From Pseudooceanicola nanhaiensis DSM 18065 (GTDB lineage: Bacteria > Pseudomonadota > Alphaproteobacteria > Rhodobacterales > Rhodobacteraceae), in contig NZ_JHZF01000001.1 of the NCBI RefSeq assembly GCF_000688295.1, positions 1 to 64,000 on the forward strand: a DNA stretch of 64,000 bases, written 5' to 3'. The notes under the pieces are model-generated. The model saw only the letters and a list, made by a program, of their open reading frames with translations, ran no database searches and was not told the DNA's origin. Of this stretch, positions 19,996-42,554 are shown in pieces (position 1 is the first letter of the stretch; every line of letters begins with the position of its first letter). A program made the translations under genes and the position numbers.

Positions 19996-19996
19996 G

Positions 19997-22636: not shown

Positions 22637-23905
22637 TTATGCCTCCATGAGGGCCATCAGGACCTGCGATGGCTGGAGCGTGTCACGGTTCTGCTTGATC
22701 TCCTCGAAGGCGGCGCCTGTCGCCTCGAGGGTCTCGGCGATGTCCGCTTCGGTCATCGCCGCATTGATGAACATGTTGTGGTAGGGGGAGAGGTAGACGC
22801 CGCGCTTCATCGCCGCCGCGCAGAAGGCGTAGCCGAGGCGGAAGTCGGGGTCCTCTTCGAACAGCACCATCGGCAGGGTCTCGGGCCCGGTGTGGCGGAG
22901 CGTGAAGCCGTAGCCCGTCGCCTGTCCGGTCAGGGCGGAACGGAAGAGCTCTCCGATGATCTGCATGTGTTCGAGGTAATCGGTCTCGCGCACGATCCGC
23001 AGCGTCTCGAGCGCGGCGGCCATGGGCACGGCGGAGAACCAGTAGGAGCCGGTGACGAAGATGTTCGCCGCCGCCTCGCGCGCCCGGTCGTTGCCGAGCA
23101 GCGCCGAGATCGGCTGGCCGTTGCCCAGCACCTTGCCCCAGGCCGAGAGGTCGGGGCGGACGCCGATCGTCTCCCACGAGCAGTCGCGGGACATCCGGAA
23201 CCCGGCGCGGACGTCATCCACGACGAGCAGCGCGTCGTGTTCGTCGGCCAGCCGCCGCGCGGCGCGGGCGTATTCGGCATCGGGCAGGGTCTGGTCGTGG
23301 AACGTGTCGTGCCGGAAGGGCGTGGCGAAGATCCCGGCGAGGTCGTCGCCCGCCTGCTTCACCGCGTCGGCCAGCGCCTGCGGGTCGTTGTAGGTGTAAT
23401 AGATCAGGTGCGCGCGATCCTCGGCCACCACGCCGCCGGGGCGCGGCGTGCTCCAAGGCAGCGAGCCGTGATAGGCGCCGGTCGCCACCAGCACCTTGCG
23501 CTTGCCGCGATAGGCCCGCGCCGTCATCAGCGCCATGGTCGTGGCGTCCGATCCGTTCTTGCAGAACATCGCCCAATCGGCGTGGGAGATCATCCCGACC
23601 AGCGCCTCGGCGAGGTCCACGATCAGCGGCGAGGGGCCGGTGGAGGTGTCGCTCAGCGCCTGCTGGCGTTCGATGGCGGCCATGACCCGGGGGTGCTGGT
23701 AGCCCAGCAGGTTCGGGCCGTAGGCGCACATGAAGTCGATGTAGGTGTTGCCATCGGCGTCGGTGATCCTGGTGCCGTCCGAGCGGGTGAAGAACTGCGG
23801 GAAGCCCTCGGGCATGAGGACGGTGGACTGGTGGCCGTACATCCCGCCCGGGATGACCTGGGCTGCGCGGTCGCGCAGGGCGCGGTCCTTGGCATTGCTC
23901 CACAT
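22637..23905 (-). CDS. Class III PLP aminotransferase, glutamate-1-semialdehyde-aminomutase-like (copy 1)
   Basis: A 422-residue fold-type I PLP enzyme. The cofactor sites are VVDDVRAGFR (Asp) and SAWGKVLGNGQP (Lys); the N-terminus carries IPGGMYGHQS. It resembles glutamate-1-semialdehyde aminomutases but lies at the head of a transporter operon, away from haem genes, so a catabolic transaminase is likelier. A second protein of the same type is at 31460-32713. It is followed after 36 bases by the DppA-like protein, suggesting that the transported compound is an amine that this enzyme deaminates. Confidence 0.85.
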   Translation of the reverse strand: MWSNAKDRALRDRAAQVIPGGMYGHQSTVLMPEGFPQFFTRSDGTRITDADGNTYIDFMCAYGPNLLGYQHPRVMAAIERQQALSDTSTGPSPLIVDLAEALVGMISHADWAMFCKNGSDATTMALMTARAYRGKRKVLVATGAYHGSLPWSTPRPGGVVAEDRAHLIYYTYNDPQALADAVKQAGDDLAGIFATPFRHDTFHDQTLPDAEYARAARRLADEHDALLVVDDVRAGFRMSRDCSWETIGVRPDLSAWGKVLGNGQPISALLGNDRAREAAANIFVTGSYWFSAVPMAAALETLRIVRETDYLEHMQIIGELFRSALTGQATGYGFTLRHTGPETLPMVLFEEDPDFRLGYAFCAAAMKRGVYLSPYHNMFINAAMTEADIAETLEATGAAFEEIKQNRDTLQPSQVLMALMEA

Positions 23906-24154: not shown

Positions 24155-25186
24155 TCAGCCCCGGGCCTTCAGGAACTCCCGCGCGACGGCGGTCACGCCG
24201 GGCGCGTCGAGCCGGTAGGCGTCGTAGAGCGCGGCGGGGGGGCCGACCTCGACGTAGCGGTCGGGCACGCCGTGCTTGAGGAAGGGCAGGCGGGGCAGGT
24301 CGACCAGCACCTCGGCCACCGCGCTGCCGAGGCCGCCGGTGATGTTGTGCTCTTCCACCGTCATGATCGCGCCGGTTTCGCGGGCGGCCGATTCGATCTC
24401 GGCCCGGTCGAGCGGGCTGATCGTGTGCATGTCGACCACGCGGACCGAGACGCCGTCCGCCGCCAGCGCCTCGGCCGCGTCGAGCGACGCCCGCACCTGG
24501 CTGCCGGTGGCGACGAGGGTCAGGTCGGAGCCCTCGCGCAGGCGGATCGCCTTGCCGATCTCGAGCTCGGGCACCTCGGCATAGACCTCCGGGTCGCGGC
24601 CCCGGCCGAGCCGGATGTACATCGCCCCCGGATGATCGACCGACTTGCGCAGCACCGCGCGCAGGTGGTTCGCGTCGGTCGCGCAGATCACCGTCAGGTC
24701 GGCCATCACCCGCAGCATCCCGAGGTCCTCGAGCGCGTGGTGAGACGAGCCGTAGAAGCCCATGGACATGCCCGAATGCGTCCCGATCACCCGCACCGGC
24801 ATCTTCGGATAGGCGCAGTCGGTGCGGATCTGCTCGGCGCCCAGGATGGCGGCGAAGCTCGCGAAGGTGGCGACGTAGGGGACGAGGCCGCAGGCCGCCA
24901 TGCCGGCGGCGGCGGTGATCATGTTCTTCTCGGCGATGCCGAAGTCGAAGAACCGCTCGGGGTGGACGTCCTTGAAGTCGTTCGTCCGGTTGGCCGAGGC
25001 GAGGTCGGCGGTGGCGACGACGATCCGGTCGTCGGTCTTCGCCAGCTCCGCCAGCTCCTCGCCCAGCACGAAGGCCGGCATGCCCGCCCTGGGCGTGCCC
25101 CGGACCGAGCGGTGGTCCTTGAACCGGGTCGCGCCCTCGGTCGTGCCGCGGAAGATCTCCGCCTCGTTCTGCATTTCGGTGCTCAT
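24155..25186 (-). CDS. Transketolase, C-terminal subunit
   Basis: A 343-residue protein equal to the pyrimidine-binding and C-terminal domains of transketolase. Visible features are FFDFGIAEKNMITAAAGMAA (glutamate that activates thiamine), the ATFASFAAILGAEQIR region, and a transketolase C-terminal domain with ITGGLGSAVAEVL. ATG 25186 overlaps the stop of the N-terminal subunit. Two-gene transketolases are often dedicated to sugar catabolism, such as apulose phosphate and sulfoquinovose pathways, rather than the pentose phosphate pathway. The substrate here is unknown; a ketose phosphate from this cluster is plausible. Confidence 0.9.
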   Translation of the reverse strand: MSTEMQNEAEIFRGTTEGATRFKDHRSVRGTPRAGMPAFVLGEELAELAKTDDRIVVATADLASANRTNDFKDVHPERFFDFGIAEKNMITAAAGMAACGLVPYVATFASFAAILGAEQIRTDCAYPKMPVRVIGTHSGMSMGFYGSSHHALEDLGMLRVMADLTVICATDANHLRAVLRKSVDHPGAMYIRLGRGRDPEVYAEVPELEIGKAIRLREGSDLTLVATGSQVRASLDAAEALAADGVSVRVVDMHTISPLDRAEIESAARETGAIMTVEEHNITGGLGSAVAEVLVDLPRLPFLKHGVPDRYVEVGPPAALYDAYRLDAPGVTAVAREFLKARG

Positions 25187-26049
25187 TCCGCGGGCTCCGG
25201 TTCATAGGGCTGAAGCCCGGCTTCCAGTTCGGCCATGACCTCGTCGTAATCCTCGCCGACGAGGTTCCCGACATGCCAGTCGAGCGACATCTCCATCCGC
25301 TTCACGCCGCGGCCCTTCACCGTGTCGAAGACGATCGCCTGCGGCTTGCCGGTGGTGCCCTCGGGCAGGGTCTCGAAGGCGCCCATGACGGAGGGAAGGT
25401 CGTGGCCGTCGACGCGCTGCACGTCCCAGCCGAAGGCGGCGAAACGGTCGTGCACCGGCTCGATCCCCATGATGTCCTCGGTATGGCCGTCGATGCTGAG
25501 GCCGTTCCGGTCGAGCAGGATCACCAGGTGGCCGAGCTGGAAATGCCCGGCCGAGATCACCGCCTCCCAGATCTGGCCTTCCGAGATCTCGCCGTCGCCC
25601 AGCATCACGTAGGTGCGGTAGTCGCGGCCCTGCATCCGCCCCGCCAGCGCCATGCCGACGCCGACCGACAGGCCGTGGCCGAGCGAGCCGGAGGAGAAGT
25701 CGAGCCCGCGGACCTTCTTCATGTCCGGATGGTCGCCGTAGTTCGACCCGAGCCGGGTGTAGGTGTCAAGCTCGGACGGGTCGAAATAGCCGAGATCGGC
25801 GAGCACCGGGTAGAGCCCGATGGCGGCGTGTCCCTTCGACATGATGAAGCGGTCGCGGTCGGGCCATTTCGGGTCCGACGGCTCGATCCGCATCTGGGCG
25901 TAATAGAGCGCCGCGAGGATCTCGGCGCAGGAGAAGGTCGAGGAATAATGCCCCGCCCCGGCGATCCGCGTCAGCCGGACGGTTTCGGTGCGGATGAACT
26001 TCGCCCGGTCCTCGAGGACGGCATAGTTCACGTTGGAGCGGTGAGTCAT
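25183..26049 (-). CDS. Transketolase, N-terminal (thiamine-diphosphate-binding) subunit
   Basis: A 288-residue subunit with the family landmarks KGHAAIGLYPVL, GSLGHGLSVGVGMALAG and the thiamine diphosphate motif GDGEISEGQIWEA...DRNGL. ATG 26049 is preferred over upstream in-frame starts because the extension to 26154 runs into the operator region. With the next gene it gives about 631 residues, close to a one-piece transketolase. It is divergent from the GntR regulator, with TGATATATCA at 26084-26093, 35 bases from its start. Confidence 0.9.
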   Translation of the reverse strand: MTHRSNVNYAVLEDRAKFIRTETVRLTRIAGAGHYSSTFSCAEILAALYYAQMRIEPSDPKWPDRDRFIMSKGHAAIGLYPVLADLGYFDPSELDTYTRLGSNYGDHPDMKKVRGLDFSSGSLGHGLSVGVGMALAGRMQGRDYRTYVMLGDGEISEGQIWEAVISAGHFQLGHLVILLDRNGLSIDGHTEDIMGIEPVHDRFAAFGWDVQRVDGHDLPSVMGAFETLPEGTTGKPQAIVFDTVKGRGVKRMEMSLDWHVGNLVGEDYDEVMAELEAGLQPYEPEPAE

Positions 26050-26083
26050 CGGCGCCCTGTCTCCTCGTTTCTTGACGCCTTTC

Positions 26084-26093
26084 TGATATATCA
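26084..26093. promoter_or_regulatory. TGATATATCA palindrome, candidate GntR operator (site 1)
   Basis: Perfect 10-bp palindrome 35 bases before the transketolase start. The same 10-mer recurs at 26180-26189, with centres exactly 96 bases apart. GntR/FadR-type regulators bind short palindromes of this kind. Confidence 0.6.
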
Positions 26094-26179
26094 GCCGTGC
26101 AGTCCGATCAAGCATTCTCGCAGTGCTTCGGCCATTTTCACGCGATGCGGTCATATTTTTCTGTCATTCCCGCCATTTG

Positions 26180-26189
26180 TGATATATCA
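26180..26189. promoter_or_regulatory. TGATATATCA palindrome, candidate GntR operator (site 2)
   Basis: Part of the 12-bp palindrome GTGATATATCAC (26179-26190), 94 bases before the GntR start. One-mismatch and two-mismatch relatives lie at 33035-33044 and 32770-32779. Confidence 0.6.
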
Positions 26190-26283
26190 CCACACCGCCC
26201 TCCCATGGTGGGGGCTTGCAAGGTCGGTCCGGGTGCGCGATGCGGCGAAGAGGCCCGGTGCAGACAGAGATGGCGGAGTGCTC

Positions 26284-27003
26284 ATGAACGAGGTGACGGT
26301 CGAATCGGAGACCGGGGACAAGTCCCTGCCGCTGTCCGAGATCGTCTATGCGAAGCTGCGGCGCGCGCTGATGCGGGCCGAGCTGAAACCGCATGAACGG
26401 CTCAAGGTCCGCGACCTCGCCCAGAAGATGGGAACCTCCGAGACACCCGTGCGCGAGGCGCTGTTCCAGCTGGCGCACGAGGGCGCGATCGAGATCCGGC
26501 CGCGCTATTACATCCGGGTGCGGCGTCTGACGCTGGCCGAATATACCGAGGTGCGCGACATCCGCCTGCAGCTCGAACCGCTGGCCGCGGAACGCGCCCT
26601 GCCACATATCGACGATGCCGCCATCGACGCGCTGGCCGCGACCCACGACGCGCTCGTCGCGGCCGAGGCGCGCGGCGACTGGCAGACGGCGCTGCAGAGC
26701 AATTTCGACTTTCATTTCGGCCTCTACACGCGGTCCGGCATGCCGACCCTGACCGAGGTGCTGGAGGGGCTCTGGATCCGGATCGGCCCGCTCCTGAGCG
26801 AGCTCTACCCGGACGCGCATCCGACCTATTCCGAGCGGCACCAGCACCTGAACGTGCTCGACGCGCTGCGCGCCCGCGACGCCTATGCCCTGCGCGAGGC
26901 GATCCGGATGGACCTGATGGAGGGCGGGCGCAACCTGCGCCAGCACCTGATGGAGTACGAAGCCGCCGCGGCGGCGCAGGCCGGGACGCGCCGCCGACGC
27001 TAG
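26284..27003 (+). CDS. GntR-family regulator with FCD domain
   Basis: A 239-residue regulator. The winged helix-turn-helix spans residues 18-80 (RLKVRDLAQKMGTSETPVRE), followed by an FCD ligand-binding domain rich in arginine and histidine. FCD regulators often bind organic acids or sugar acids. It is divergent from the transketolase pair and is followed after 27 bases by a short-chain dehydrogenase on the same strand. Two copies of TGATATATCA flank its promoter, so it probably represses both directions. I infer that it also governs the pot-like and aminotransferase operons at 33 kb. Confidence 0.88.
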   Translation: MNEVTVESETGDKSLPLSEIVYAKLRRALMRAELKPHERLKVRDLAQKMGTSETPVREALFQLAHEGAIEIRPRYYIRVRRLTLAEYTEVRDIRLQLEPLAAERALPHIDDAAIDALAATHDALVAAEARGDWQTALQSNFDFHFGLYTRSGMPTLTEVLEGLWIRIGPLLSELYPDAHPTYSERHQHLNVLDALRARDAYALREAIRMDLMEGGRNLRQHLMEYEAAAAAQAGTRRRR

Positions 27004-27030
27004 GCGCGGCCATTCTCCGGGAGGCAGGGC

Positions 27031-27771
27031 ATGATCATCGTGACGGGCGGGACCCACGGCATCGGGCGCGCGGCGGCCGGGATCCTTCTGGCGGAGGGGC
27101 GCGAGGTGCTGATCGCGGGCCGCGACGCCGCAACCGGAGAGGCGCTGGCCGCGGCGCATGAGCGGCTGCATTTCCACAGGACCGACGTGTCGGTCGAGGC
27201 CGAGTGCCGGGCGCTGGTGGACCGCGCGATGGACCTGGGCGGCGGGAAGATCGCCGGGCTGGTGAACAATGCCGGGATCGGACGCCGCCACGTCTTTGCC
27301 GAGACGACCCTTGCCGACTGGGACGAGGTCATGGCCGTGAATGCCCGCAGCGTCTATCTGATGACGCGGCTCGCGCTCGACGGGCTGGTGGCGGGGCAGG
27401 GGGCGGTGGTCAATGTCGCCTCCATCGCCGGGAAGGCGGGCGAGGAGGAACTGGCGATCTACACCGCCTCGAAGGCCGCGGTCATCGGGCTGACGCAGGC
27501 GCTGGCGCTGGAGCTGGGGCACCTCGTGCGGTTCAACGCGGTCTGCCCGGGCCAGATCGGGACGCGGATGATGGGGCGGGTGCTGTCGGACGACCGGCGG
27601 CGGCAGGAGCTGGAGCTGCGGATCCCCGCGGGCCGCATCGCCCGGCCGGAGGAGGTGGGCGATGTGATCGCCTGGCTTCTGTCGGAGCGGTCGTCCTATG
27701 TGAACGGCGCGGTCCTTCCGGTCGACGGGGGCGAGACGGCAGGGCTGCGGACACCGCGCCACCCGGAGTGA
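27031..27771 (+). CDS. Short-chain dehydrogenase/reductase
   Basis: A 246-residue classical SDR oxidoreductase. The cofactor loop TGGTHGIG, NNAG, the catalytic serine region (VNVASIAGKAG) and YTASK are all present. Acidic residues typical of NAD+ preference are not obvious after strand 2 (LIAGRDA), so NADP(H) is possible. It follows the GntR gene and converges on the OtnC-like aldolase gene. It could oxidise or reduce a carbonyl or alcohol produced by the transaminases in the cluster. Exact substrate unknown. Confidence 0.85.
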   Translation: MIIVTGGTHGIGRAAAGILLAEGREVLIAGRDAATGEALAAAHERLHFHRTDVSVEAECRALVDRAMDLGGGKIAGLVNNAGIGRRHVFAETTLADWDEVMAVNARSVYLMTRLALDGLVAGQGAVVNVASIAGKAGEEELAIYTASKAAVIGLTQALALELGHLVRFNAVCPGQIGTRMMGRVLSDDRRRQELELRIPAGRIARPEEVGDVIAWLLSERSSYVNGAVLPVDGGETAGLRTPRHPE

Positions 27772-27775
27772 GGTC

Positions 27776-28438
27776 TCAGCCCTTCGCCGTGCCGGGCTTT
27801 CCGTAGCCGTAGGATTTGTAGGCCGCGTGGACCTCGTCCATCTCCGCGCCGCTCAGCAATGTCACCGCGCCCATGGTCCGGGCGAGCTGGTACTGGCGCG
27901 CCAGCACCTCGAGCTTTTCGGTCAGGTCGAAGGCCGCGCCGAGGCTGCCGGCGAGCGCGATCATCCCGTGGTTCGCCATCAGGCAGGCGCGGTAGGTCGT
28001 GCCCATGGTCTCGGCCACCGCCTCGGCCAGCTCCGGGCCGCCGAAGGTGCGGTAGGGGGCGCAGGGCACCTCGTTCCCGCCGAAGGAGGCGACCATGTAG
28101 TGGAACGCGGGCATCGGCTCGCGCAGGACCGAGAGCGCGACGCAATAGGTCGGGTGGGCGTGCACGATCCCCTGCGCCTCGGGCCGGTTGCGGTAGAGCG
28201 CGGCGTGTAGCGCCCATTCGCTGGAGGGCTTCCAGTCGCCCCTGAAGCTGCCGTCGAAGGCGACCTCGGCGATCTGGTCCTCGGTCATGCGGTCCGGCGC
28301 GATGCCGGAGGGGGTGATCAGCATCCCCTCGCCGAAGCGGACCGAGAGGTTCCCGGCGGTGGCGTTCGAGAGGCCGCGTGTCACGGACTCGCGGCTGTAA
28401 TGCACGAGCGCCGCGCGGATCTCTGCTTCGGTTTTCAT
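27776..28438 (-). CDS. Class II aldolase/decarboxylase, OtnC-like
   Basis: A 220-residue class II aldolase/adducin-type protein. The zinc ligands appear in IVHAHPTYC (His-x-His) and NHGMIAL, with an upstream SEWALH glutamate. In known four-carbon acid pathways OtnC decarboxylates a 3-oxo-tetronate 4-phosphate to dihydroxyacetone phosphate. ATG 28438 overlaps the stop of the OtnK-like kinase, a pairing that is conserved in such pathways. Other L-fuculose-phosphate-aldolase-type reactions are not excluded. It is the last gene of a four-gene unit from 32713. Confidence 0.82.
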   Translation of the reverse strand: MKTEAEIRAALVHYSRESVTRGLSNATAGNLSVRFGEGMLITPSGIAPDRMTEDQIAEVAFDGSFRGDWKPSSEWALHAALYRNRPEAQGIVHAHPTYCVALSVLREPMPAFHYMVASFGGNEVPCAPYRTFGGPELAEAVAETMGTTYRACLMANHGMIALAGSLGAAFDLTEKLEVLARQYQLARTMGAVTLLSGAEMDEVHAAYKSYGYGKPGTAKG

Positions 28439-29694
28439 CGGCTTCCCTCTTCGATTTCCTCGAGCGCGCGGAGCAGGACATCCGTCGCGCCGAGCTTGCC
28501 GGATTTCAGGAAGAACGACACCGGGTCCGGCCCTTCCGAGACGCAGAACCCGCCGCCGTTCGGCCCGCGCGGAAAGGGGCGGACGGAGCGGATGCCGAGC
28601 GCGGTGACGATGGAGCCCGAGGTCTCGCCTCCGGCCACGACGAAGCGCCGGACGCCGCTCGCGTGCAGCCCCTGCGCGACCCGTGCGAGGATGCGCTCCG
28701 CCAGCCGGGCCGCGCCGAGCCGGCCAAGCGCGGCCTGCGCGGCCTTGACGCCGGACTCGTCGGCGCAGGTGGTGATCCCGAACGGCGTCCCGATCCGGTC
28801 CGTGGCCCAGTCGAGCGCCTGTCCGGTCAGCGCCGCTTCGTCGCCGGCCAGAAGGTCCAGCCGCAGCACCGGGTGTTTCGCCTCGAAGGCGGCCAGCTGC
28901 GCCTCGGCCACCGGGCCGACGCTGCCGCCCAGCACCACGGCGGGCCCCTGCGCATGGCGCGGCGCGGCGGCGGTCCCCGCGTGACCTCGGCCGAGCGCGA
29001 GGCCCAGCGAGATCACCAGCGGATCGCTCGCCACGATGCAGCGGCGGTCGAGGGCGAGCGTGGTGCTCATCTCGACATCGCCCGCGTCGGAACAGTCGAG
29101 CAGGACATGCCGGTGCCCGGCCTTCACATGCGCGGCGAGCGTGTCGCGCGCCGTGGTCTCGTCCAGCAGGTCGAGATGCGTGACAAGGCCGAGCGGCGTG
29201 GCGGTCTGCCGCGACAGGAACCGCACGAGGTTCGGGTCGGGCATCGGCGTGACCGGGTCGAAGCGCTTCACCGACTCGTTCACCAGCATGCCCTGATAGA
29301 ACAGGTGGCCCTGGTGGACGGTGCAGCGGAACTCCGGGAAGCCCGCGCTGAAGAGCACCGGCAGGTCGCCGTAGCGCTCGGCCAGCATGTCGGCGGCGGG
29401 GCCGATGTTGCCCTCTTCGGTCGAATCGAAACTGGCGCAGGCCTTGTAGGCGACGGTGCCGCAGCCGAGCGCGTCGAGCGCATCGAGGGCGCGGGCGATC
29501 TCGGCCTTCGCCTCTTCGACCGGGGTCAGCCGCGTGCGCGCGGCGATGACGACGATCGGCGCCTCCGTGTCGGCCTCGCCTGCCGCGTCCGTGTCGAAGA
29601 AGACCGGACATTCGATCCCGGCCTCCTCGAAATAGGAGGCGACCAGCAGCCCGCCGGTGAAATCGTCCGAGAGGATGCCGTAGGCCGGGCTCAT
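28435..29694 (-). CDS. Four-carbon acid sugar kinase, OtnK-like
   Basis: A 419-residue DUF1537-type kinase. The N-terminal LSDDFTGG motif and the C-terminal VAGGETSGSIVTALG nucleotide-binding segment are diagnostic of this family, which phosphorylates 3-oxo-tetronates, D-threonate or D-erythronate. It is coupled to the OtnC-like gene by an ATGA overlap and starts 37 bases after the amidohydrolase-like gene. The sugar-acid substrate implied by kinase plus aldolase is a four-carbon 3-oxo acid, but the upstream enzymes are atypical, so the natural substrate may differ. Confidence 0.82.
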   Translation of the reverse strand: MSPAYGILSDDFTGGLLVASYFEEAGIECPVFFDTDAAGEADTEAPIVVIAARTRLTPVEEAKAEIARALDALDALGCGTVAYKACASFDSTEEGNIGPAADMLAERYGDLPVLFSAGFPEFRCTVHQGHLFYQGMLVNESVKRFDPVTPMPDPNLVRFLSRQTATPLGLVTHLDLLDETTARDTLAAHVKAGHRHVLLDCSDAGDVEMSTTLALDRRCIVASDPLVISLGLALGRGHAGTAAAPRHAQGPAVVLGGSVGPVAEAQLAAFEAKHPVLRLDLLAGDEAALTGQALDWATDRIGTPFGITTCADESGVKAAQAALGRLGAARLAERILARVAQGLHASGVRRFVVAGGETSGSIVTALGIRSVRPFPRGPNGGGFCVSEGPDPVSFFLKSGKLGATDVLLRALEEIEEGSR

Positions 29695-29731
29695 GGCCTG
29701 CCGTCCCCGTCGCTGTGCATCGCGCCCATCG

Positions 29732-31399
29732 TCATGCCTCGCCGCCGAACCGGTCGAGCGCGTTGCGGGTGATCGCCTCGGTGAAGGGGTCGCGGCGGGT
29801 CAGGCCCATGATCCATTCGCAGGACCCGGCGGTCAGCACCTCGCCCTTGCCGCGCTTCATGCTCGTTACCATGCCCGAACCGTACTGGTAGTTCCGCCGG
29901 GCGACGGGCGTCTCCTCGGCGGCCAGCTCCGCCAGCCCGACGAGATCGGAATCCCGCACGTAGTAGCGGTAGCCCGGGCCTTCGTGTTCGTATTCGAACA
30001 GCACGGCCGGGCTCATGGCGAGGATGTCGATCCCTTCGGGCACGCCCGGATCGGCGACGGGGTAGGGCAACCCGCGCTCGAAGGTGTAGTTCAGCCCGTC
30101 GACCTCGTAGCCGAAGATCCCGGCCTCGGCGCCGAAGACATCGGCATAGCGCAGGTCGGTGCCCTCGAAGACCCAGTGTTCGGGACGATAGACGGTGAAC
30201 CCGCGCGAGCCGCGCGGCGCGAAGCCGCCCCAGCTTCCGTACATGCCGTGGCAGCCGTTCACCCCCACGGTCGAGGCGCCGGGCCAGTTCACCCCGCCGC
30301 TTTCCCACGAGGCGGTGAGCAGGTGCTTTTGTTCGGGGTCGTCGCGCACCGGGTCCATCTTGGGCGCCTTGGTCTTCCAGCAGACCTGCCGGGCGCCGTC
30401 CTCCTCCAGCCGGATCTGCCACAGGAAGTTGCCGCCGAAGCGCGAGAAGTTGCCGCCCCGCTCGACGAAATCCTCGACCGTCTTCCGCATGTCCCAGGAC
30501 CAGTATTCGTCATGCCCCACGGTCACGAGGCAGGTGTAATCGTCGAGGATCCCGGGCCGCAGGTGCAGGTCGGTCTGGGTGATGATGTCGAAGCCGTAGC
30601 CCTGCCGTTCGGCCCAGACGGCGAAATGCCGGTCGAACTGGGCCCAGCCGGCGGCGGCGTAATACTGGCCGAAGCCGTGCGAATAGCCCCATTCCTTCGA
30701 CGGGTAGCCGGGCAGGTCGTTCATCTCGGGGATGCGGTTCTGCGCGATCCGCGCGGCGCCCTTGGGCAGCCAGAGCATCCCGCGCGTCCAGGGCCGGTGC
30801 AGGCTGAGATGCGGCGAGCCCTCGTTCCCGTTCGGCCCCCATGTCCCGAAGTAATGGTTCGCGCCGCCCCAGTCGTTGTAGGCGGTCCATGTGCCCGTCG
30901 CGAGCATGAAGAGGATCCTGCCCTGCCGCGTCTCGGGCGTCGGGCGGACGACGAAGAAATGGTGCTGGACGAAGCGCTCCCCGTCCTTGCGCATGCAGGT
31001 CGACACCACGCGGTAGAAACCCGGGCGCTGCCCCTCGGGGATCGTCCAGGAATGCAGGACCGGCCAGTCGCAGCCGTCCATGTAGGCGGTCTCGGAGGTT
31101 CGGGTGAAGGTCCCGGGCAGGTCGAAGGCTTCGTGCGCCATCTCGGGCGCATGGCCGTCCCGGTAGATCTGGAGCGTCCATCTGTCCGCCGTGGTCGAGC
31201 CGTGGAACTCGACCGTCTCGCCCGGGTCGTAGGACATCCGGGGCGTGTAGACGAAGACCTCGGCCAGCTCGGGATCCTCGCGCGGCGCCTGGAAGCGGTA
31301 GTCCGACAGGAAGTGCTCGTCGCCGTAGCCCTTCCGCACGCCCCAGGGCGCGACGGCATGGGGGCCGGTTTCGGGGAAACGGAATTTCGAACGGGTCAT
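29732..31399 (-). CDS. N,N-dimethylformamidase large-subunit-like protein
   Basis: A 555-residue protein resembling the C-terminal part of the large subunit of dimethylformamidase, including the GHDEYWSWDMRKTVEDFVER segment, AYNDWGGANHYFG and a conserved C-terminal WIMGLTRRDPFTEAITRNAL. Known enzymes are about 760 residues, use a mononuclear iron and pair with a small subunit; here no small-subunit gene is adjacent and the chain is about 200 residues shorter. It may hydrolyse another amide. It lies 60 bases downstream of the class III aminotransferase and upstream of the kinase/aldolase pair. Confidence 0.75.
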   Translation of the reverse strand: MTRSKFRFPETGPHAVAPWGVRKGYGDEHFLSDYRFQAPREDPELAEVFVYTPRMSYDPGETVEFHGSTTADRWTLQIYRDGHAPEMAHEAFDLPGTFTRTSETAYMDGCDWPVLHSWTIPEGQRPGFYRVVSTCMRKDGERFVQHHFFVVRPTPETRQGRILFMLATGTWTAYNDWGGANHYFGTWGPNGNEGSPHLSLHRPWTRGMLWLPKGAARIAQNRIPEMNDLPGYPSKEWGYSHGFGQYYAAAGWAQFDRHFAVWAERQGYGFDIITQTDLHLRPGILDDYTCLVTVGHDEYWSWDMRKTVEDFVERGGNFSRFGGNFLWQIRLEEDGARQVCWKTKAPKMDPVRDDPEQKHLLTASWESGGVNWPGASTVGVNGCHGMYGSWGGFAPRGSRGFTVYRPEHWVFEGTDLRYADVFGAEAGIFGYEVDGLNYTFERGLPYPVADPGVPEGIDILAMSPAVLFEYEHEGPGYRYYVRDSDLVGLAELAAEETPVARRNYQYGSGMVTSMKRGKGEVLTAGSCEWIMGLTRRDPFTEAITRNALDRFGGEA

Positions 31400-31459
31400 G
31401 GCGGCGGCTCCCTATGCCGGGGGGTGGTCAGGTCGGGCGCGGAGCGCGGACGACAGGGA

Positions 31460-32713
31460 TCATGCGTCCGCGCTCCGGTCCCGTGCAAGCGCTGCGAAGG
31501 CGTCGTCGATGGCCGAGAGCGCCTCATCGACGACCGCGTCGGTATGCGCGAGCGACAGGAACATGTTGTGCTTGTTGTGCAGGTAGACGCCGCGGGCGAG
31601 GGCCTGCTGGCAGAAGGCCTCGCCCAGCTTCGCGTCCGGGTCGTCGGCGAAGTGCATCAGCGGGATCGCCGGCGGGCCGGACATCGTCACCTCGAACCCG
31701 TGCCGCGCGGCCGCCTCGGTGAGGCCGGTGCAGAACCGCTCTCCGGCGGCGGCCAGCCGGGCCGGGCCGTCCTCGCGTTCGAGGATCTCGAGCGTCTTGA
31801 CCGCGGCGGCCATCGGCGCGCCGGAATACCAGAAGGAGCCGGTGACGAAGACCTGCTCGGCGGCGGGGCGGAAACGGTCGTTCCCGGTCACGGCCGAGAG
31901 CGGGTAGCCATTGGCGATCGCCTTGGAATAGCCGGCAAGGTCGGGCCGGATGCCGACGTTCTCCCAGCTTCCGCCGAGGTTCAGGCGGAACCCGGCGCGC
32001 ACGTCGTCGAGCACCAGCGCCGCGCCGGTCCGGTCGCAATGCGCGCGGGCCGCCCGGGCGAAGGCCGCGTCGGGCAGCTGCTGGCGGATGGCGAGGTCAT
32101 GCTTGAAGGCGGAGGCCACGATGGCGGCAAGGTCGTCGCCCGCCTCGGCCACGGCGGCATCGAGGCTCTCGACGTCGTTGTAGGTGTAGTAGATCAGGTG
32201 CGCCCGGTCCTCGGCGGTGACGCCCAGCACCGAGGGCGAGCACCAGGGCACCGCGCCGTGATAGGCGCCCTTCGCGACCAGCACCTTGCGCCTGGCCGTG
32301 CCCGCGCGGGCGAGCGTCACGCAGGTGGTCATCGCGTCCGAACCGTTCTTCTGGAAGAGCGCCCAGTCCGCATGGGGGATCAGCGCGACCATCTTCTCGG
32401 CCAGCCGCACCGCGTGCTCGGTCGGCCCGTCGAGGCAGTCGCCCCGGTCGAGCTGCTCGCGCGCCGCGGCTTCGACCTCGGGGTGCCGGTGGCCGAGGAT
32501 GATCGGCCCCCAGGAGCACATGAAGTCGATGTAGTCGCGCCCGTCCACGTCCCGCACCCGCGCGCCCTCGCCGCCCGCGAAGAACTGCGGATAGCCCTCG
32601 GGCACCGCGGCGGCGCGCATGTGGCCCCACATGCCGCCGGGGATCACGGAGGCCGCCCGCCGGCGCAGCTGTGCGTCCAGGCTGTTCGGCAGGTCTGGGC
32701 TTGCGTCGGTCAT
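31460..32713 (-). CDS. Class III PLP aminotransferase, glutamate-1-semialdehyde-aminomutase-like (copy 2)
   Basis: A 417-residue PLP enzyme, paralogous to 22637-23905. Cofactor residues lie in LVLDDVRAGFR and AGYSKAIANGYP, and the N-terminus has IPGGMWGHMRA. It heads the unit aminotransferase, amidase-like, kinase, aldolase, so it probably acts on the same compound. Shared sequence blocks with copy 1 (AEDRAHLIYYTYND; EQVFVTGSFWYSGAPMAAA versus NIFVTGSYWFSAVPMAAA) show that the two are closely related, yet they sit in different operons. Confidence 0.85.
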   Translation of the reverse strand: MTDASPDLPNSLDAQLRRRAASVIPGGMWGHMRAAAVPEGYPQFFAGGEGARVRDVDGRDYIDFMCSWGPIILGHRHPEVEAAAREQLDRGDCLDGPTEHAVRLAEKMVALIPHADWALFQKNGSDAMTTCVTLARAGTARRKVLVAKGAYHGAVPWCSPSVLGVTAEDRAHLIYYTYNDVESLDAAVAEAGDDLAAIVASAFKHDLAIRQQLPDAAFARAARAHCDRTGAALVLDDVRAGFRLNLGGSWENVGIRPDLAGYSKAIANGYPLSAVTGNDRFRPAAEQVFVTGSFWYSGAPMAAAVKTLEILEREDGPARLAAAGERFCTGLTEAAARHGFEVTMSGPPAIPLMHFADDPDAKLGEAFCQQALARGVYLHNKHNMFLSLAHTDAVVDEALSAIDDAFAALARDRSADA

Positions 32714-32769
32714 CCGTGGCTCCGTCTCTGGTCATGTGCGCGTGCCGGGCTCGGGCGGGCGCCGTTATT

Positions 32770-32779
32770 CGATATACCA
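32770..32779. promoter_or_regulatory. CGATATACCA, weak GntR-type site upstream of the aminotransferase operon
   Basis: Matches TGATATATCA at 8 of 10 positions and lies 57 bases before the aminotransferase start at 32713. It may be a weaker site for the regulator encoded at 26284. Confidence 0.35.
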
Positions 32780-33024
32780 AAAATCCGAGTCTGAGGGGCT
32801 TCGTCAAGACGTACTTCTCATTTAGATGGAGATTATTCAGGAATACGCAGGCCCTCGCCGACGGCGCTCGATCTTTGGAAATTCGGCGTATTTTCCCGGA
32901 ATATAGGGCTTTTGTCCCGCACCAGAGTCTCCGATGGTGCGAAGAAGCCGGCCGAAAAAGCCTCAAAACTCCGCCCGGAAACCCTATGACTGCACCTCAT
33001 CCGAGCACCCCAAGCTGAAATCAA

Positions 33025-33054
33025 TTGTCACATCTGCTATATCATGCCTATGAT
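33025..33054 (+). promoter_or_regulatory. Sigma-70-type promoter of the polyamine-type ABC operon
   Basis: TTGTCA (33025-33030) and TATGAT (33049-33054), spaced 18 bases, lie 40 bases before the ATPase start. TGCTATATCA, a one-mismatch GntR-like site, sits within the spacer (33035-33044), where a bound repressor would block polymerase. Confidence 0.5.
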
Positions 33055-33093
33055 TCTCACCACGACGTGAGCAAGAATCGAAGTGGGGACCAC

Positions 33094-34185
33094 ATGGCGA
33101 ATGGCGCGCAGACCACCGCGGGGGCCGAGATCACGGTGCGCGGGCTGGAGAAGAAATTCGGTCAGCTCAAGGCCGTGGACGATCTGTCGCTCGACATCCC
33201 CAGCGGAGAATTCCTGGCGCTGCTCGGCCCCTCGGGGTCCGGCAAGTCGACGGTGCTGATGATGCTCGCCGGGTTCGAGGTGCCGACCGCCGGGGCGATC
33301 ACCATCGACGGGCGCGACTGCACCCGGCTGACGCCGCAGAAGCGCAACATCGGCATGGTGTTCCAGCATTATTCGCTGTTCCCGCATCTCTCGGTCATCG
33401 ACAACGTCGCCTTCCCGCTGAAGATGCGCGGCGCGTCCCGGGCCGACCGGCGCCGCCGCGCCGCCGAGGCGCTCGAGGTCGTGCGGCTCGAGGGCTACGG
33501 CGACCGGATGCCCTCGCAGCTCTCCGGCGGGCAGCGGCAGCGCGTGGCGCTGGCGCGGGCGATCGTGTATCAGCCCCGGCTTCTGCTGATGGACGAACCG
33601 CTCTCGGCGCTCGACAAGAACCTGCGCGAGGAGATGCAGCTCGAGATCAAGCGCCTGCACTCCGAACTGGGCGTGACCGTCGTCTTCGTCACCCACGACC
33701 AGGGCGAGGCGCTGACCATGGCCGACCGCGTCGCGATCCTGCGCGGCGGGCGGATCCAGCAGATCTCGGCCGCGCGCGAGCTTTACGAACGCCCGGCGAA
33801 CCTGTTCTCGGCAGGGTTCATCGGCGAGATGAACATGATCCCCGCGCAATGGGACGGCAGCGGGCTGATGCTGGCGCAGGGCGACCGGCTGGCGCCGCCC
33901 GAGGCCGCGCTGATCGGTGCGGTGCCGTCGGGCGTGGCCACGCTCGCGATCCGGCCGGAACGGCTGCGGGTCTCGGCGCCCGACGCGCCCGGGGCCCTCG
34001 CCGCCACGCTGGAGGAGGTCGTCTATGCCGGGGCCGGCACGCTGCTGATCGCCCGCCTCGCGGACGGGACCGAGATCCGCGCCCGCGTCCCCTCTGCCGG
34101 GCTGCCGCGGCTGGCCGAGGGCGAGCGGATCGGGCTGACCTTCGATCCCGACGCGCTGCTGGTCTACGGCGAGGCGGCGGCATGA
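33094..34185 (+). CDS. Polyamine-type ABC transporter ATPase (PotA-like)
   Basis: A 363-residue ABC ATPase with Walker A GPSGSGKST, signature LSGGQRQR and Walker B LLLMDEPLSALD, followed by a TOBE-type C-terminal domain (ATLAIRPERLRV). ATG 33094 has GGGGA just ahead; the frame is open to 33025 but only across the promoter. It drives the two permeases that follow. PotA-like systems carry spermidine/putrescine, but relatives also carry other amines, opines and betaines. Confidence 0.9.
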   Translation: MANGAQTTAGAEITVRGLEKKFGQLKAVDDLSLDIPSGEFLALLGPSGSGKSTVLMMLAGFEVPTAGAITIDGRDCTRLTPQKRNIGMVFQHYSLFPHLSVIDNVAFPLKMRGASRADRRRRAAEALEVVRLEGYGDRMPSQLSGGQRQRVALARAIVYQPRLLLMDEPLSALDKNLREEMQLEIKRLHSELGVTVVFVTHDQGEALTMADRVAILRGGRIQQISAARELYERPANLFSAGFIGEMNMIPAQWDGSGLMLAQGDRLAPPEAALIGAVPSGVATLAIRPERLRVSAPDAPGALAATLEEVVYAGAGTLLIARLADGTEIRARVPSAGLPRLAEGERIGLTFDPDALLVYGEAAA

Positions 34186-35051
34186 GCATGGCCGGCTTCC
34201 TCCAGCCCGACGGGCGGAACCTCTCGAAGGCGGGGATCCTGCTGCTGATGGCGCCCTTCTTCCTGCTGATCGGCTTCGCCTTCCTCTACCCGCTGCTCAG
34301 CCTGCTCTCGATCTCGGTCACCGAGCCGCAGACCGGGCTGCAGAACTACGAGCGGATCCTCGACACGCCGGTCTACGGCAAGGTCCTTCTGCGGACGCTG
34401 TGGATCGCGCTGCTGGTGTCGATCCTGTCGCTCTTCCTCGCCTTCCCGGTGGCGATGGCGATGGTCTCGTCCTCCGGCGCGATGGCGGTCTTCATCACCG
34501 CCTGCATCCTCTTGCCCTTCTGGTCCTCGGTGCTGGTGCGCACCGCCGCCTGGGCGGTCCTGTTGCAGCGCAACGGGATCGTCAACGACCTGCTGCAGGC
34601 GATCGGGATCATCGACGCGCCGGTCAGGCTGCTCTACACGCAGGGCGCCGTCGTGGTCGCGATGACCCACGTGCTGATGCCCTTCATGGTGCTGCCGATC
34701 TACGGCGCGCTCAGGAACATCCCGCCGGATTACGGCCGCGCCGCCGCGATCTGCGGGGCGGGGCCCCTCCGCAGCTTCTTCGAGGTGACCCTGCCGCTCG
34801 CCATGCCCGGCGTCCTGGGCGGCTTCATCCTCGTCTTCCTGACCGCGCTCGGCTATTTCATCACCCCCGCGCTGCTCGGTTCCCCGCAGGAGATGATGAT
34901 CGCCACGCTGATCTCGCAGCAGCTGCGCGAGTTCCTCGACTGGCCCTTCGCCGCCGCGCTCGTCGGTGTGCTGACCCTCTTCGTCACCGCGATCACGCTG
35001 CTCTTCAGCCGGGTGTTCCGCTTCGACCGGATGCTGGGGGGCCAGGTATGA
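34182..35051 (+). CDS. Polyamine-type ABC transporter permease (PotB-like)
   Basis: A 289-residue inner-membrane subunit with six predicted helices and an EAA loop (DYGRAAAICGAGPLRSFFEV). ATG 34182 overlaps the ATPase stop in an ATGA. It forms the channel with the PotC-like subunit. Confidence 0.9.
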   Translation: MSMAGFLQPDGRNLSKAGILLLMAPFFLLIGFAFLYPLLSLLSISVTEPQTGLQNYERILDTPVYGKVLLRTLWIALLVSILSLFLAFPVAMAMVSSSGAMAVFITACILLPFWSSVLVRTAAWAVLLQRNGIVNDLLQAIGIIDAPVRLLYTQGAVVVAMTHVLMPFMVLPIYGALRNIPPDYGRAAAICGAGPLRSFFEVTLPLAMPGVLGGFILVFLTALGYFITPALLGSPQEMMIATLISQQLREFLDWPFAAALVGVLTLFVTAITLLFSRVFRFDRMLGGQV

Positions 35052-35863
35052 GCGGCAAACTCACCCCCGGCCGCCTGATGCTGATGGCCTATGTCTATCT
35101 CGTGCTGATCTTCGTGCTGGCGCCGATCGTGGTCATCCTGCCGATGGCCTTCAGCGAGCCCGATTACCTGACCTTCCCGCCCGAGGGCTTCACCTTCAAG
35201 TGGTTCGGCGCCTTCTTCGGCAATGCGCGCTGGATGGACGCCTCGGTCTTCTCGCTGAAGATCGCCGTCCTGACCTCGATCGTGACGGTGGTGGTCGGCA
35301 CCATGGCGACCTATGCGCTGATGCGCGGGGCGGGGCGGCTCGGCACCCTGTTCCAGGGGTTGCTGATCGCGCCCATCGTGGTGCCGCATATCGCGCTGGC
35401 GGTCGCGCTCTACCTGTTCTTCCGGCAGACCGGGCTTTCGGGCACCGTCACCGGATATGTCATGGCGCATGCGATCATCGCCATGCCCTTCGTGGTCTTC
35501 ACCGTGGCCGCCGCGCTCAGTTCGGTGGACGCGACGCTCGAGGACGCGGCGATGAGCTGCGGCGCCTCGCGGTTCGATGCCTTCCGGCTGGTGACGCTGC
35601 CGCTGATCCTGCCCAACGTGCTGTCGGGGGCGCTCTTCGCCTTCATCCTGTCCTTCGACGAACCGGTGATCTCGTTCTTCCTCGCCGGCATCCGGGACAA
35701 GACCCTGCCGCGCATGATGTTCGACAACATCGAACAGAACCTCACCCCGGTGATCCCGGCGATTGCCGTCCTGCTCACCGGCGTCTCGATCCTCGTTCTG
35801 GTCTGTGCCGCGGTCCTGCGGCGCATGGCCCAATCCCGGAGCATCCCCGCGGAAGAGGGGTGA
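35048..35863 (+). CDS. Polyamine-type ABC transporter permease (PotC-like)
   Basis: A 271-residue inner-membrane subunit with six helices and the EAA loop (TLEDAAMSCGASRFDAFRLV). It overlaps the PotB-like stop. The SFDEPVISFFLAG segment is typical of PotC proteins. Confidence 0.9.
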   Translation: MSGKLTPGRLMLMAYVYLVLIFVLAPIVVILPMAFSEPDYLTFPPEGFTFKWFGAFFGNARWMDASVFSLKIAVLTSIVTVVVGTMATYALMRGAGRLGTLFQGLLIAPIVVPHIALAVALYLFFRQTGLSGTVTGYVMAHAIIAMPFVVFTVAAALSSVDATLEDAAMSCGASRFDAFRLVTLPLILPNVLSGALFAFILSFDEPVISFFLAGIRDKTLPRMMFDNIEQNLTPVIPAIAVLLTGVSILVLVCAAVLRRMAQSRSIPAEEG

Positions 35864-35897
35864 TCCGGTCCACCAAGGCAACGACAAGGAGGTTGAC

Positions 35898-36941
35898 ATG
35901 AAGACGATGAAACGGGCCGGGCTGCTGGCCCTGGCGATGCTGGCGGCCGGAACGGCGGCGCGCGCCGACGAGCTGGTGATCGCCACCACCGGCGGGCTGA
36001 TGCGCAACGAGATGGAGAAGTGGTTCTACCTGCCCTTCACCGAAGAGACCGGGACCGAGGTGATCCCCTTCGACATCGAGGTTCCCGACCAGTGGGCCCG
36101 GGCCGAAGGGATGATCCGCACCGGCAATGTCGAGTTTGACATCGTCACCGCGACCGGTCCGGACCTTGTCGACAAGGCCGAGATGCTGATGGACATCCCC
36201 TGCGACACGCTGGAGAACGTCAAGGAATACGCCCTGCCGGGCGCCTGCCAGCCGAAGGGGATCGCCCGGACCACGGGCGGCATGGTCCTGACCTACAACA
36301 CCGAGACCTACGCCGATAACCCGCCGGAGTCCTGGGCCGATTTCTGGGATGTCGAGACCTACCCCGGCCCGCGCGGCCTGCCCGACACCGGCGACCGCGA
36401 CTGGTGGCTGCCGACCGTCGCGCTGCTGGCCGACGGGGTGGCGAAGGAGGATCTCTATCCGCTCGACCTCGACCGCGCCTACGCGAAGCTCGAGGAAATC
36501 CGCCCGCATATCGCGGTGTGGTGGAAGACCGGCAACCAGGTCCAGCAGATCATGCGCGACAACGAGGTCGCGATGACCATGGCCTATTCCGGCCGCGCGC
36601 TGAAGGTGATCCAGGACGGCTCTCCCTTCGCGATGGCCTGGGACGGGGCGATCCGCGACACGGGCTATCTTGCCGTGCTGAAGGGGGCGCCGAATCCCGA
36701 GGGGGCGATGAACTTCATCAACTTCTTCTACGGGGCGGCCGACGGGCATCCGGGCTTCATCCAGGCGGTCGGCTACGCGACCTCGTCGACGATCGGCCTG
36801 AGCCAGCTGCCCGAGGACGAACAGAAGCTCTACGCCACCTACCCGGCGAACTACGAGGTCCTCGTCGATCCAGACTTCGAATGGATCGGCGCGAACCGCG
36901 ACGAGCTGCGCGAGCGCTGGACGAACTGGCTTCTCCAGTGA
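35898..36941 (+). CDS. ABC transporter substrate-binding protein, PotD-like
   Basis: A 347-residue periplasmic protein with a Sec signal peptide (MKTMKRAGLLALAMLAAGTA then ARA). It has the PotD-type ELVIATTGGLMRNEMEKWFY start and an aromatic-rich binding region (DRDWWLPT; VWWKTGNQ). An AAGGAGG lies before ATG 35898. As the last gene of the operon it is followed by a strong stem-loop. Its ligand is unknown; the acidic residues that grip polyamine ammonium groups cannot be located with confidence. Confidence 0.88.
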   Translation: MKTMKRAGLLALAMLAAGTAARADELVIATTGGLMRNEMEKWFYLPFTEETGTEVIPFDIEVPDQWARAEGMIRTGNVEFDIVTATGPDLVDKAEMLMDIPCDTLENVKEYALPGACQPKGIARTTGGMVLTYNTETYADNPPESWADFWDVETYPGPRGLPDTGDRDWWLPTVALLADGVAKEDLYPLDLDRAYAKLEEIRPHIAVWWKTGNQVQQIMRDNEVAMTMAYSGRALKVIQDGSPFAMAWDGAIRDTGYLAVLKGAPNPEGAMNFINFFYGAADGHPGFIQAVGYATSSTIGLSQLPEDEQKLYATYPANYEVLVDPDFEWIGANRDELRERWTNWLLQ

Positions 36942-37050: not shown

Positions 37051-37773
37051 TTGACCACATCACGAGACTTGCTGGCCGAACTGACCCAGAACCGGCCGAT
37101 GCGGCGCCGGGGGATCGAACGCTACCACCGCATCCTCGACGCGACCGAAGAGCTGCTGTCGGGCAGCGGCGACGAGGACATCAGCCTCGCCCAGATCGCC
37201 GAGCAGGCCGAGATCTCGCTCGCCTCGGTCTATTACTTCTTCCCGAACCGCAATTCCGTCTACGTGGCCCTCGCCCTGCGGTTCAACGAGGAGATCTATG
37301 ACCGCTCCATCCGCCCGCTGACCGACCCCGAGCCGCAAACCTGGCAGGAGTTGCTGGAGCGCAAGCACAAGGCGGCCGCCGAGTTCCAGAACAGCCGCCC
37401 CGCCGCGCTCCGCCTCTTTCTCGGCGCCGGCGTCTCGGCCGCGGTCCGCAGCGCGGATTTCACCGGGAACGCCCGGCTGGCCCGCAGCCGCGCGCGGATG
37501 TTCGAGGCCTATTTCGACATCCAGAACATGCCCGACCTGCCGCACTGGCTCGAGATGTCGGCGGCGGCGATGGACGGGATCTGGTCGCTCTCCTACGGCT
37601 ATCACGGCGTCATCACCGAGGAATATCGCGCCGAGGCGACCGCCTGCGCCGTCACCTACCTGCGCCGATACCTGCCCGAATACCTCGCCCGGATCCCGCT
37701 GACGCAGGAGGCGCTGGAGCGGGTGCGCATCGACCTCGACGCGCCGGCGCCCGCGCTCGTCGCCAACGACTGA
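37051..37773 (+). CDS. TetR-family regulator
   Basis: A 240-residue repressor with a TetR helix-turn-helix (ISLAQIAEQAEISLASVYYF) and an all-helical C-terminal domain. The start is TTG 37051 with GGGAG ahead. It follows the pot-like operon on the same strand but past a stem-loop, and converges on a methyltransferase gene. It may regulate the transporter. Ligand unknown. Confidence 0.82.
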   Translation: MTTSRDLLAELTQNRPMRRRGIERYHRILDATEELLSGSGDEDISLAQIAEQAEISLASVYYFFPNRNSVYVALALRFNEEIYDRSIRPLTDPEPQTWQELLERKHKAAAEFQNSRPAALRLFLGAGVSAAVRSADFTGNARLARSRARMFEAYFDIQNMPDLPHWLEMSAAAMDGIWSLSYGYHGVITEEYRAEATACAVTYLRRYLPEYLARIPLTQEALERVRIDLDAPAPALVAND

Positions 37774-38520: not shown

Positions 38521-38642
38521 CGTGCTGTCCGTCTTTTGCCGGCTGGCTTCGGCCTATCGCGCGGAGGTGTCAACCGGCATTCTTGACGAAATCAGTCGGA
38601 AACCGTAGGGGGGCCATGTCTGATCCAAATGAGGACCCCTTC

Positions 38643-39779: not shown

Positions 39780-39786
39780 ACGCGAC

Positions 39787-39806
39787 GGGCGGCCTTCGGG
39801 CCGCCC
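39787..39806 (+). other. Intercistronic stem-loop with UUCG loop
   Basis: GGGCGGCC-TTCG-GGCCGCCC, a perfect 8-bp stem, lies between the binding protein and permease genes. Such structures commonly raise the binding-protein to permease ratio by protecting the upstream mRNA. Confidence 0.65.
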
Positions 39807-39823
39807 TCTGCACGAGGGGCATC

Positions 39824-42504: not shown

Positions 42505-42554
42505 CCGGGGCCGGGGTGGGCAAAAAACGGCACCGTGGGCAAATCTTCACGCAG

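Follow-up and report, generated by a model that had tools for sequence, protein, structure and literature searches.

The 64,000-nucleotide stretch of Pseudooceanicola nanhaiensis DSM 18065 analysed here (contig NZ_JHZF01000001.1, positions 1 to 64,000; hereafter the window) contains a gene cluster in which a transketolase encoded in two halves (tktN and tktC) lies beside an aminotransferase of the family of FumI, an enzyme known from fumonisin catabolism. Read from right to left, the cluster consists of a PotABCD-type ATP-binding cassette (ABC) importer on the forward strand (33094-36941), a FumI-family aminotransferase (AT2), a DMFA2_C protein, a DUF1537 kinase and a class II aldolase (all reverse), followed leftward by a short-chain dehydrogenase (SDR) and a GntR/FCD regulator (both forward), the split transketolase (reverse), and a second aminotransferase (AT1) with a Dpp-type importer (reverse) (Table 1). 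Gene families were called by Pfam profile scans of the window proteins, and gene starts were partly read from translations. All enzyme classes named in an earlier sequence-only reading of this DNA were recovered by Pfam close to where that reading had placed them. Its single gene at 17097-19064 is an open reading frame that overlaps two ATPase genes, dppF and dppD, in the translations, and the Aldolase_II domain forms the C-terminal part of a long open reading frame (27776-29611) in which the probable gene is the shorter one tabulated.

The cluster is more than a chance assembly, because related genomes conserve it. When 292 Rhodobacterales genomes were searched for relatives of tktC, nine close C-terminal halves (at least 70% identical to that of the window, itself included) emerged, spread over eight genomes, and at all nine loci a FumI-like aminotransferase (at least 59% identity) adjoins the transketolase. 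The next 36 C-terminal halves by score (L189-L224; at most 52% identity, all from split enzymes) lack any aminotransferase of more than 31% identity within the stretch fetched (0/36), with 32 of these loci extending at least 8 kb on each side. The constant partnership is that of the split transketolase and the FumI-like aminotransferase. The sequence-only reading had relegated the transketolase to a side branch, a role at odds with its being, in close relatives, the gene that most constantly accompanies the aminotransferase. Other partners among the nine close loci are the FCD regulator (seven), DMFA2 (five), the Pot importer (five), the kinase with the aldolase (four), an AT1-type aminotransferase (four) and the SDR (three); a relative from the same genus (L185) lacks both DMFA2 and the Pot importer, and L186, without AT2, has the transketolase together with AT1, Dpp and an amidase. 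Downstream of tktC, three relatives (L034, L185 and L186) carry AT1 together with Dpp, with an intervening TetR gene in L034 and L185, and L035 carries Dpp without AT1, a gene order that upholds the proposed link between the AT1/Dpp unit and the split transketolase. Failure of the genes to be conserved together had been named beforehand as the outcome that would count against a single pathway; the core proved to be conserved and the C4 sugar-acid module to be optional, so that half of that unfavourable outcome was observed. The kinase and aldolase, missing from five of the nine close loci, do not form the backbone of the pathway, and the SDR is missing from six.

Table 1. Genes and predicted operators of the cluster (window coordinates).
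Feature	Position	Strand	Basis or remark
dppF-like ABC ATPase, Dpp-type importer	17097..18113	-	ABC_tran and oligo_HPY in frame 17097-19064; start from translation
dppD-like ABC ATPase	18110..19126	-	Translation; Walker and signature motifs by eye, not scanned separately
dppC-like permease	19123..20031	-	BPD_transp_1
dppB-like permease	19997..21010	-	BPD_transp_1
dppA-like solute-binding protein, SBP_bac_5	21017..22600	-	Pfam 9e-70
AT1, FumI-clade class III aminotransferase (Aminotran_3)	22637..23905	-	58% identity to 6hbs; tree
tktC, C-terminal half of split transketolase	24155..25186	-	Transket_pyr and Transketolase_C; altered acceptor pocket
tktN, N-terminal half of split transketolase	25183..26049	-	Transketolase_N; nearest solved structure is split transketolase 6yak
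Predicted operator TGATATATCA, exact	26084..26093	.	Kept in relatives
Predicted operator TGATATATCA, exact	26180..26189	.	Kept in relatives
GntR/FCD regulator	26284..27003	+	GntR and FCD both above Pfam cut-off
SDR, accessory	27031..27771	+	adh_short_C2 7.7e-57
Class II FucA-like aldolase, accessory	27776..28438	-	Aldolase_II
DUF1537-family kinase (SBD_N/NBD_C), accessory	28435..29694	-	Pfam
DMFA2_C protein, short form, putative amide hydrolase	29732..31399	-	Pfam 1.2e-68
AT2, FumI-family class III aminotransferase (Aminotran_3)	31460..32713	-	50% identity to 6hbs
Weak operator-like site CGATATACCA, 2 mismatches	32770..32779	.	0-2 mismatches at corresponding place in L034-L037
Predicted operator TGCTATATCA, 1 mismatch	33035..33044	.	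Kept in relatives
PotA-like ABC ATPase	33094..34185	+	ABC_tran and TOBE_2
PotB-like permease	34182..35051	+	BPD_transp_1
PotC-like permease	35048..35863	+	BPD_transp_1
Solute-binding protein, nearest mannopine/agropine binders	35898..36941	+	5l9s 168 bits
TetR-family regulator	37051..37773	+	Pfam; kept at importer end in L034 and L035

The palindrome TGATATATCA occurs as two exact copies in the tktN/FCD gap and, with one mismatch, as a single copy in the AT2/potA gap. The window has no further site within one mismatch of the palindrome; its three compare with an average of 0.17 in 60 first-order simulations. When each gap's own composition was used, two such sites arose in the tktN/FCD gap in 0 of 3000 simulations and one arose in the AT2/potA gap in 0.8% of simulations. 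Operators are common to the same two gaps in orthologous loci, and across 12 loci (hand-picked and non-redundant, with duplicates left out, and not the full 80 of the survey described below) cluster promoters hold 26 of the 29 sites that differ from the palindrome by no more than one base. In L113 the sites lie at the aminotransferase, tktN and kinase promoters, and in L090 between kinase and aminotransferase and between aminotransferase and tktN. Among three loci that lack an FCD match (L187, L188 and L076), no site was seen in L187 or L188, and the one in L076 lies outside the cluster promoters. The predicted paired operators tie the regulator, the transketolase, the AT2 operon and the importer together, and the FCD protein presumably binds the palindromes and controls the gene set. 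They also bear on the quite unlikely alternative that independent neighbours happen to adjoin (AT1 with Dpp; AT2 with DMFA2 and Pot; the split transketolase with FCD; the SDR with the kinase and aldolase). Such independence would accord with plasmids of Pseudosulfitobacter and Variovorax that carry a FumI-like aminotransferase and Dpp importer but no transketolase, with 24 regions (L039-L062) in which DMFA2 proteins of at most 50% identity stand without an aminotransferase, transketolase or kinase match, and with the tktC-AT1 gap of the window, which has no operator with fewer than three mismatches (best 7/10). Against it stand the linkage of transketolase and aminotransferase (9/9 versus 0/36), the position of AT1 downstream of tktC in three relatives, and operators common to both gaps in orthologues and present in the L113 and L090 promoters.

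Both aminotransferases had been described as GSAM-like, a label that does not survive comparison with solved structures, since for each FumI (6hbs) is a nearer relative than GSAM or any other class III aminotransferase. AT1 matches FumI at 58% identity over 416 aa (571.6 bits) and AT2 at 50% over 400 aa (427.2 bits), while the best GSAM structures give 157.1 and 169.9 bits, respectively. An identity with GSAM itself (HemL) was rejected, as AT2 and AT1 reach 216 and 193 bits against a TIGR00713 cut-off of 527. In a tree of 100 sequences (which, like the sets of 28 transketolases and 39 short DMFA2 forms below, includes loci fetched twice: L070 = L034, L072 = L036 and L146 = L188), AT1 falls with FumI in a nine-member clade with support 1.0 and weak inner branches, and AT2 falls outside the FumI clade proper. 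With hydrolysed fumonisin B1, FumI is reported to use pyruvate as acceptor of the 2-amino group and to form a ketone at C2, next to the hydroxyl at C3 (PMC2933618), and fumonisin detoxification is reported for FumI relatives of 62-74% identity (PMC9858248). No account of the natural role of FumI-family aminotransferases was met in those parts of the surveyed literature that were accessible, where the enzymes are studied for mycotoxin detoxification.

The split transketolase, numbered according to E. coli TktA (checked on the K-12 gene), retains the catalytic and donor-site histidines H26, H66, H100, H261 and H473. Its phosphosugar acceptor pocket is not intact: T, A, A and Y replace R91, R358, S385 and D469, and H461 and R520 are retained, so that the pocket R358/S385/H461/D469/R520 reads A/A/H/Y/R. 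A separate full-length transketolase elsewhere in the genome keeps all 13 positions examined, including all five pocket residues, and the split enzyme is therefore not the sole copy. S385 is described as contacting the substrate phosphate and D469 as pairing with R91; S385 and D469 are also among the positions altered when transketolase was evolved in the laboratory for non-phosphorylated and aromatic aldehydes, an evolved variant with activity on aromatic aldehydes carrying S385Y, D469T and R520Q (PMC5073344), and R358, S385, D469 and R520 are named as engineered positions (PMC7661550). The closest solved relative of both window halves, the split transketolase of Carboxydothermus hydrogenoformans (6yaj/6yak), has the same two-gene architecture; it keeps a GEDG motif where the window enzyme has GFYG and is reported to be without the engineered substitutions at R358, S385, D469 and R520 (PMC7661550), whereas the window enzyme has lost R358, S385 and D469. 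Among 28 cluster transketolases with both halves (two loci counted twice), 20 combine H100 with Y469 and eight N100 with L469, R358 is retained in none, and R520 and H473 are retained in 28/28. H100L has been introduced so that transketolase accepts pyruvate, a donor without the hydroxyl (PMC10787763). The H100 of the window enzyme suggests a hydroxymethyl ketol as substrate, and N100 suggests methyl ketols resembling FumI's own product; the subtype Y26/N100/L469, which adjoins FumI-like aminotransferases in L079, L087, L095, L104, L110, L118, L140 and L063, is possibly a methyl-ketol lyase. The order also has a second split-transketolase family: of the 40 C-terminal halves examined, 23 (L196, L197, L199, L202, L204-L209 and L211-L223) carry Y in place of S385, as the evolved S385Y enzyme does, with an SDR match nearby in 23/23 and an FCD match in 12/23.

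Our favoured interpretation, whose chances we judge to be evenly balanced, is that the locus degrades a compound with a 2-amino-3-hydroxy unit through transamination and thiamine-dependent cleavage. Gene families, conservation, conserved palindromes and active-site residues can be read from the DNA, and it is from these that we infer a substrate, the individual reactions, their order and the binding of FCD to the palindromes. The substrate is probably a 2-amino-1,3-diol, HOCH2-CH(NH2)-CH(OH)-R, with the amine perhaps acylated; chloramphenicol-like, sphingoid-like, aminopolyol and 3-amino-tetronate compounds were considered as candidates. It would be taken up through the PotABCD-like system, the Dpp-like system or both. 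The former had been labelled polyamine-type, a label that its binding protein does not bear out: in a search of the PDB its nearest relatives are mannopine- and agropine-binding proteins, with 168 bits for the mannopine binder 5l9s versus 43 bits for the spermidine/putrescine binder 1pot. A polyamine as the default cargo was rejected on these scores, and the opine-like binding protein speaks for a polar, amino-polyol-like cargo. After uptake, the DMFA2 protein would hydrolyse the amide (a step that an amidase or penicillin-amidase-type enzyme may take over in other loci), and AT2 or AT1 would transaminate the product, as FumI does hydrolysed fumonisin B1, to the ketol HOCH2-CO-CH(OH)-R. The split transketolase would then break the C2-C3 bond, transferring the two-carbon ketol to an aldose phosphate and freeing R-CHO. 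In an optional branch, where the genes are present, the dehydrogenase, kinase and FucA-like aldolase may turn a further hydroxylated fragment into dihydroxyacetone phosphate, and the FCD regulator would govern the set through the paired operators. The earlier claim of a single catabolic locus for import, probable amide hydrolysis and transamination is supported. The claim that the gene combination lacks an earlier description also stands, as none was found in the open-access literature; titles and abstract openings there (most subscription papers lie outside) gave no matching pathway for the cluster, for thiamine enzymes in fumonisin degradation or for chloramphenicol breakdown.

In an alignment with N,N-dimethylformamidase (DMFase) comprising 39 short forms (two counted twice) and 11 readable long forms, the window DMFA2 protein keeps five of six catalytic or ligand residues (the equivalents of Y399, H519, E521, N547 and E657), with catalytic H519, N547 and E657 all present. 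It thus resembles the family of DMFase and N-acetyl-(R)-beta-phenylalanine acylase, the latter being a solved relative of the long DMFA2 proteins; it differs from DMFase in being a single short chain with Y440 replaced and with no match to the small subunit dmfS in window positions 16001-39000 (tblastn, E 1e-12), a gene that adjoins the long forms in other loci. In L071 and L063 a short DMFA2, a long DMFA2 and a small-subunit match occur together, and since both forms share a locus the short form is no simple replacement for the long one. A single-sequence search with the window protein gave no PDB match, and its AlphaFold model has a mean pLDDT of 50.

Other soil and marine bacteria have partnerships of a similar kind, built from parts that can replace one another. 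The 80 FumI-like loci surveyed are the best 80 of 555 relatives in a scan of named genomes, so that the shares describe close relatives only, and a module was counted as present if a tblastn match reached E 1e-12 over 40% of the query. By this measure the loci contain a solute-binding protein (60), FCD (38), kinase with aldolase (26), split transketolase (22), a fused thiamine-dependent E1 (20, some matches being weak, e.g., 34% identity in L096), DMFA2 (19), aldehyde dehydrogenase (14), a penicillin-amidase type (10) and an amidase (9). At least one module that would cleave a carbon-carbon bond (split transketolase, E1 or kinase with aldolase) is present in 46/80 and at least one amide hydrolase in 28/80, and transketolase and E1 co-occur in only two loci. 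In Shinella, the E2 partner of the E1 lies above the acetoin-dehydrogenase cut-off (374 versus 307 bits), and the pair, as a putative acyloin-cleaving system, fits an acyloin intermediate. Clusters at L064, L099, L127, L136 and L143 combine a FumI-like gene with E1, an acetoin-dehydrogenase-type E2, an acyl-CoA dehydrogenase and a class IV aminotransferase. Eight closely alike Mesorhizobium clusters (L107, L114, L116, L119, L120, L124, L128 and L130) all carry a fused E1 and the kinase, with a hydantoinase/oxoprolinase in seven, hinting at another amide-opening enzyme, and a CoA-transferase III gene in seven. The penicillin-amidase-type genes and aldehyde dehydrogenases would suit a route for long-chain, ceramide- or sphingoid-like 2-amino-1,3-diols, in which the amide hydrolase acts as a ceramidase and the transketolase releases a fatty aldehyde, as would the loss of several polar residues from the acceptor pocket. 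We regard this route as highly improbable: the ABC importers are of small-solute kinds, one with an opine-binder-like protein, and are ill suited to long-chain lipids, and DUF1537 kinases are known to act on sugar acids. What favours it further is that FumI acts on hydrolysed fumonisin (PMC2933618), described as an analogue of sphinganine (PMC7711896).

The kinase and aldolase underlie another possibility, the one closest to the sequence-only reading, in which the amide or amine of a C4 polyol or acid is hydrolysed and transaminated directly to 3-oxo-tetronate, which the kinase and an aldolase/decarboxylase convert to dihydroxyacetone phosphate, leaving the transketolase as a side branch. We consider this unlikely as an account of the whole locus. 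A DUF1537 kinase adjoining a class II aldolase-family protein is indeed the arrangement of OtnK/OtnC 3-oxo-tetronate catabolism, but the labels OtnK-like and OtnC-like had promised more than the profile scores give: the window kinase reaches 261 bits on the OtnK model (cut-off 350), and the aldolase, below both cut-offs, is more FucA-like (193 bits; cut-off 264) than OtnC-like (118 bits; cut-off 250). A tetronate dehydrogenase and isomerase are usual in that pathway, and general Pfam scans revealed neither among the window genes scanned. Both window genes are, moreover, optional among related loci, being absent from 5/9 loci at which the constant partner is the transketolase. In favour of the C4 route, the linked kinase of Mesorhizobium L120 exceeds the OtnK cut-off (399 versus 350 bits), 3-oxo-tetronate would itself be a ketol of the predicted type, and the long DMFA2 proteins have the acylase noted above as a solved relative. 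The kinase with aldolase also lies near 26/80 FumI-like aminotransferases, and the kinase is present in 24 of the 57 FumI-like loci having at least 8 kb on both sides; because PF07005 gives 63 matches, spread over 47 of 100 genomes from the same family as the window, chance adjacency is expected to be rare. We take this as an adjacency far above chance, with the cautions that the loci share ancestry and that the kinase alone was measured. A C4 acid branch is possible where both genes exist.

Several observations weigh against the favoured interpretation of transamination followed by thiamine-dependent cleavage. FumI is known to yield a methyl ketol rather than one of the hydroxymethyl type. 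The same-genus relative has no DMFA2 protein genome-wide and no Pot importer in its 19 kb fetched, and 24 of the 80 surveyed loci (12 of which extend 8 kb or more in each direction) have neither a C-C-cleaving module nor an amide hydrolase. The favoured mechanism leaves the role of the kinase and aldolase unexplained; they are accompanied by a thiamine enzyme in 20/26 loci and so are not simple alternatives for one step, which rules out kinase and transketolase as plain substitutes for each other. In the window DMFA2 protein the iron ligand Y440 is H, with Y kept in 0/39 short forms and 11/11 long forms; given that mutation of this ligand in DMFase is reported to abolish activity (PMC7686228), hydrolase activity of the short protein is uncertain. 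D469 is kept in 0/40 split-transketolase C-terminal halves examined in the order, including the 36 without a FumI-like neighbour, so that loss of the pocket is not specific to the aminotransferase partnership (as a mark of which it was rejected) and argues for a non-sugar aldehyde only in a general way. When two mismatches are allowed, the operators are mildly enriched in the window (8 sites versus 3.8 expected), and L073, which has AT2, DMFA2 and Pot with no FCD match, has no site above 7/10 in the gaps examined.

The nearest known systems share parts of the proposed chemistry. In the fumonisin catabolism of Sphingopyxis sp. MTA144, an aminotransferase of the same family performs the conversion predicted here (2-amino-3-ol to 2-keto-3-ol), and the window locus adds ABC importers and the split transketolase. 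The synthetic transketolase/transaminase route to chiral aminodiols (PMC5073344) employs the same two enzyme classes and the same type of intermediate in laboratory biosynthesis, whereas the route of the window is predicted to be the reverse chemistry in natural catabolism. More broadly, we suggest, tentatively and with the balance somewhat against it, a widespread modular route for N-acylated 2-amino-3-hydroxy compounds that combines FumI-family transamination with a dedicated split transketolase or fused E1, and in which the second transketolase subtype (8/28; H100 to N and D469 to L) acts on methyl ketols. If this holds, FumI-family aminotransferases would serve a common amino-alcohol pathway of soil and marine bacteria, assembled as one route from interchangeable parts (three amide hydrolase families, two importer types and as many as three classes of enzyme that cleave C-C bonds). 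Nature would then run the engineered aminodiol pathway backwards, with transketolases naturally changed where laboratory evolution made changes, and the pathway would offer further detoxification enzymes as well as naturally occurring transketolases suited to non-sugar aldehydes.

Two further transport loci lie to the right of the cluster. Adjoining Peripla_BP_2 and FecCD genes (38385-40885) indicate an importer of the iron or corrinoid type that is apparently unrelated, and a SBP_bac_8/SBP_bac_1 binding protein with an ABC ATPase (42535-45221) belongs to another importer.

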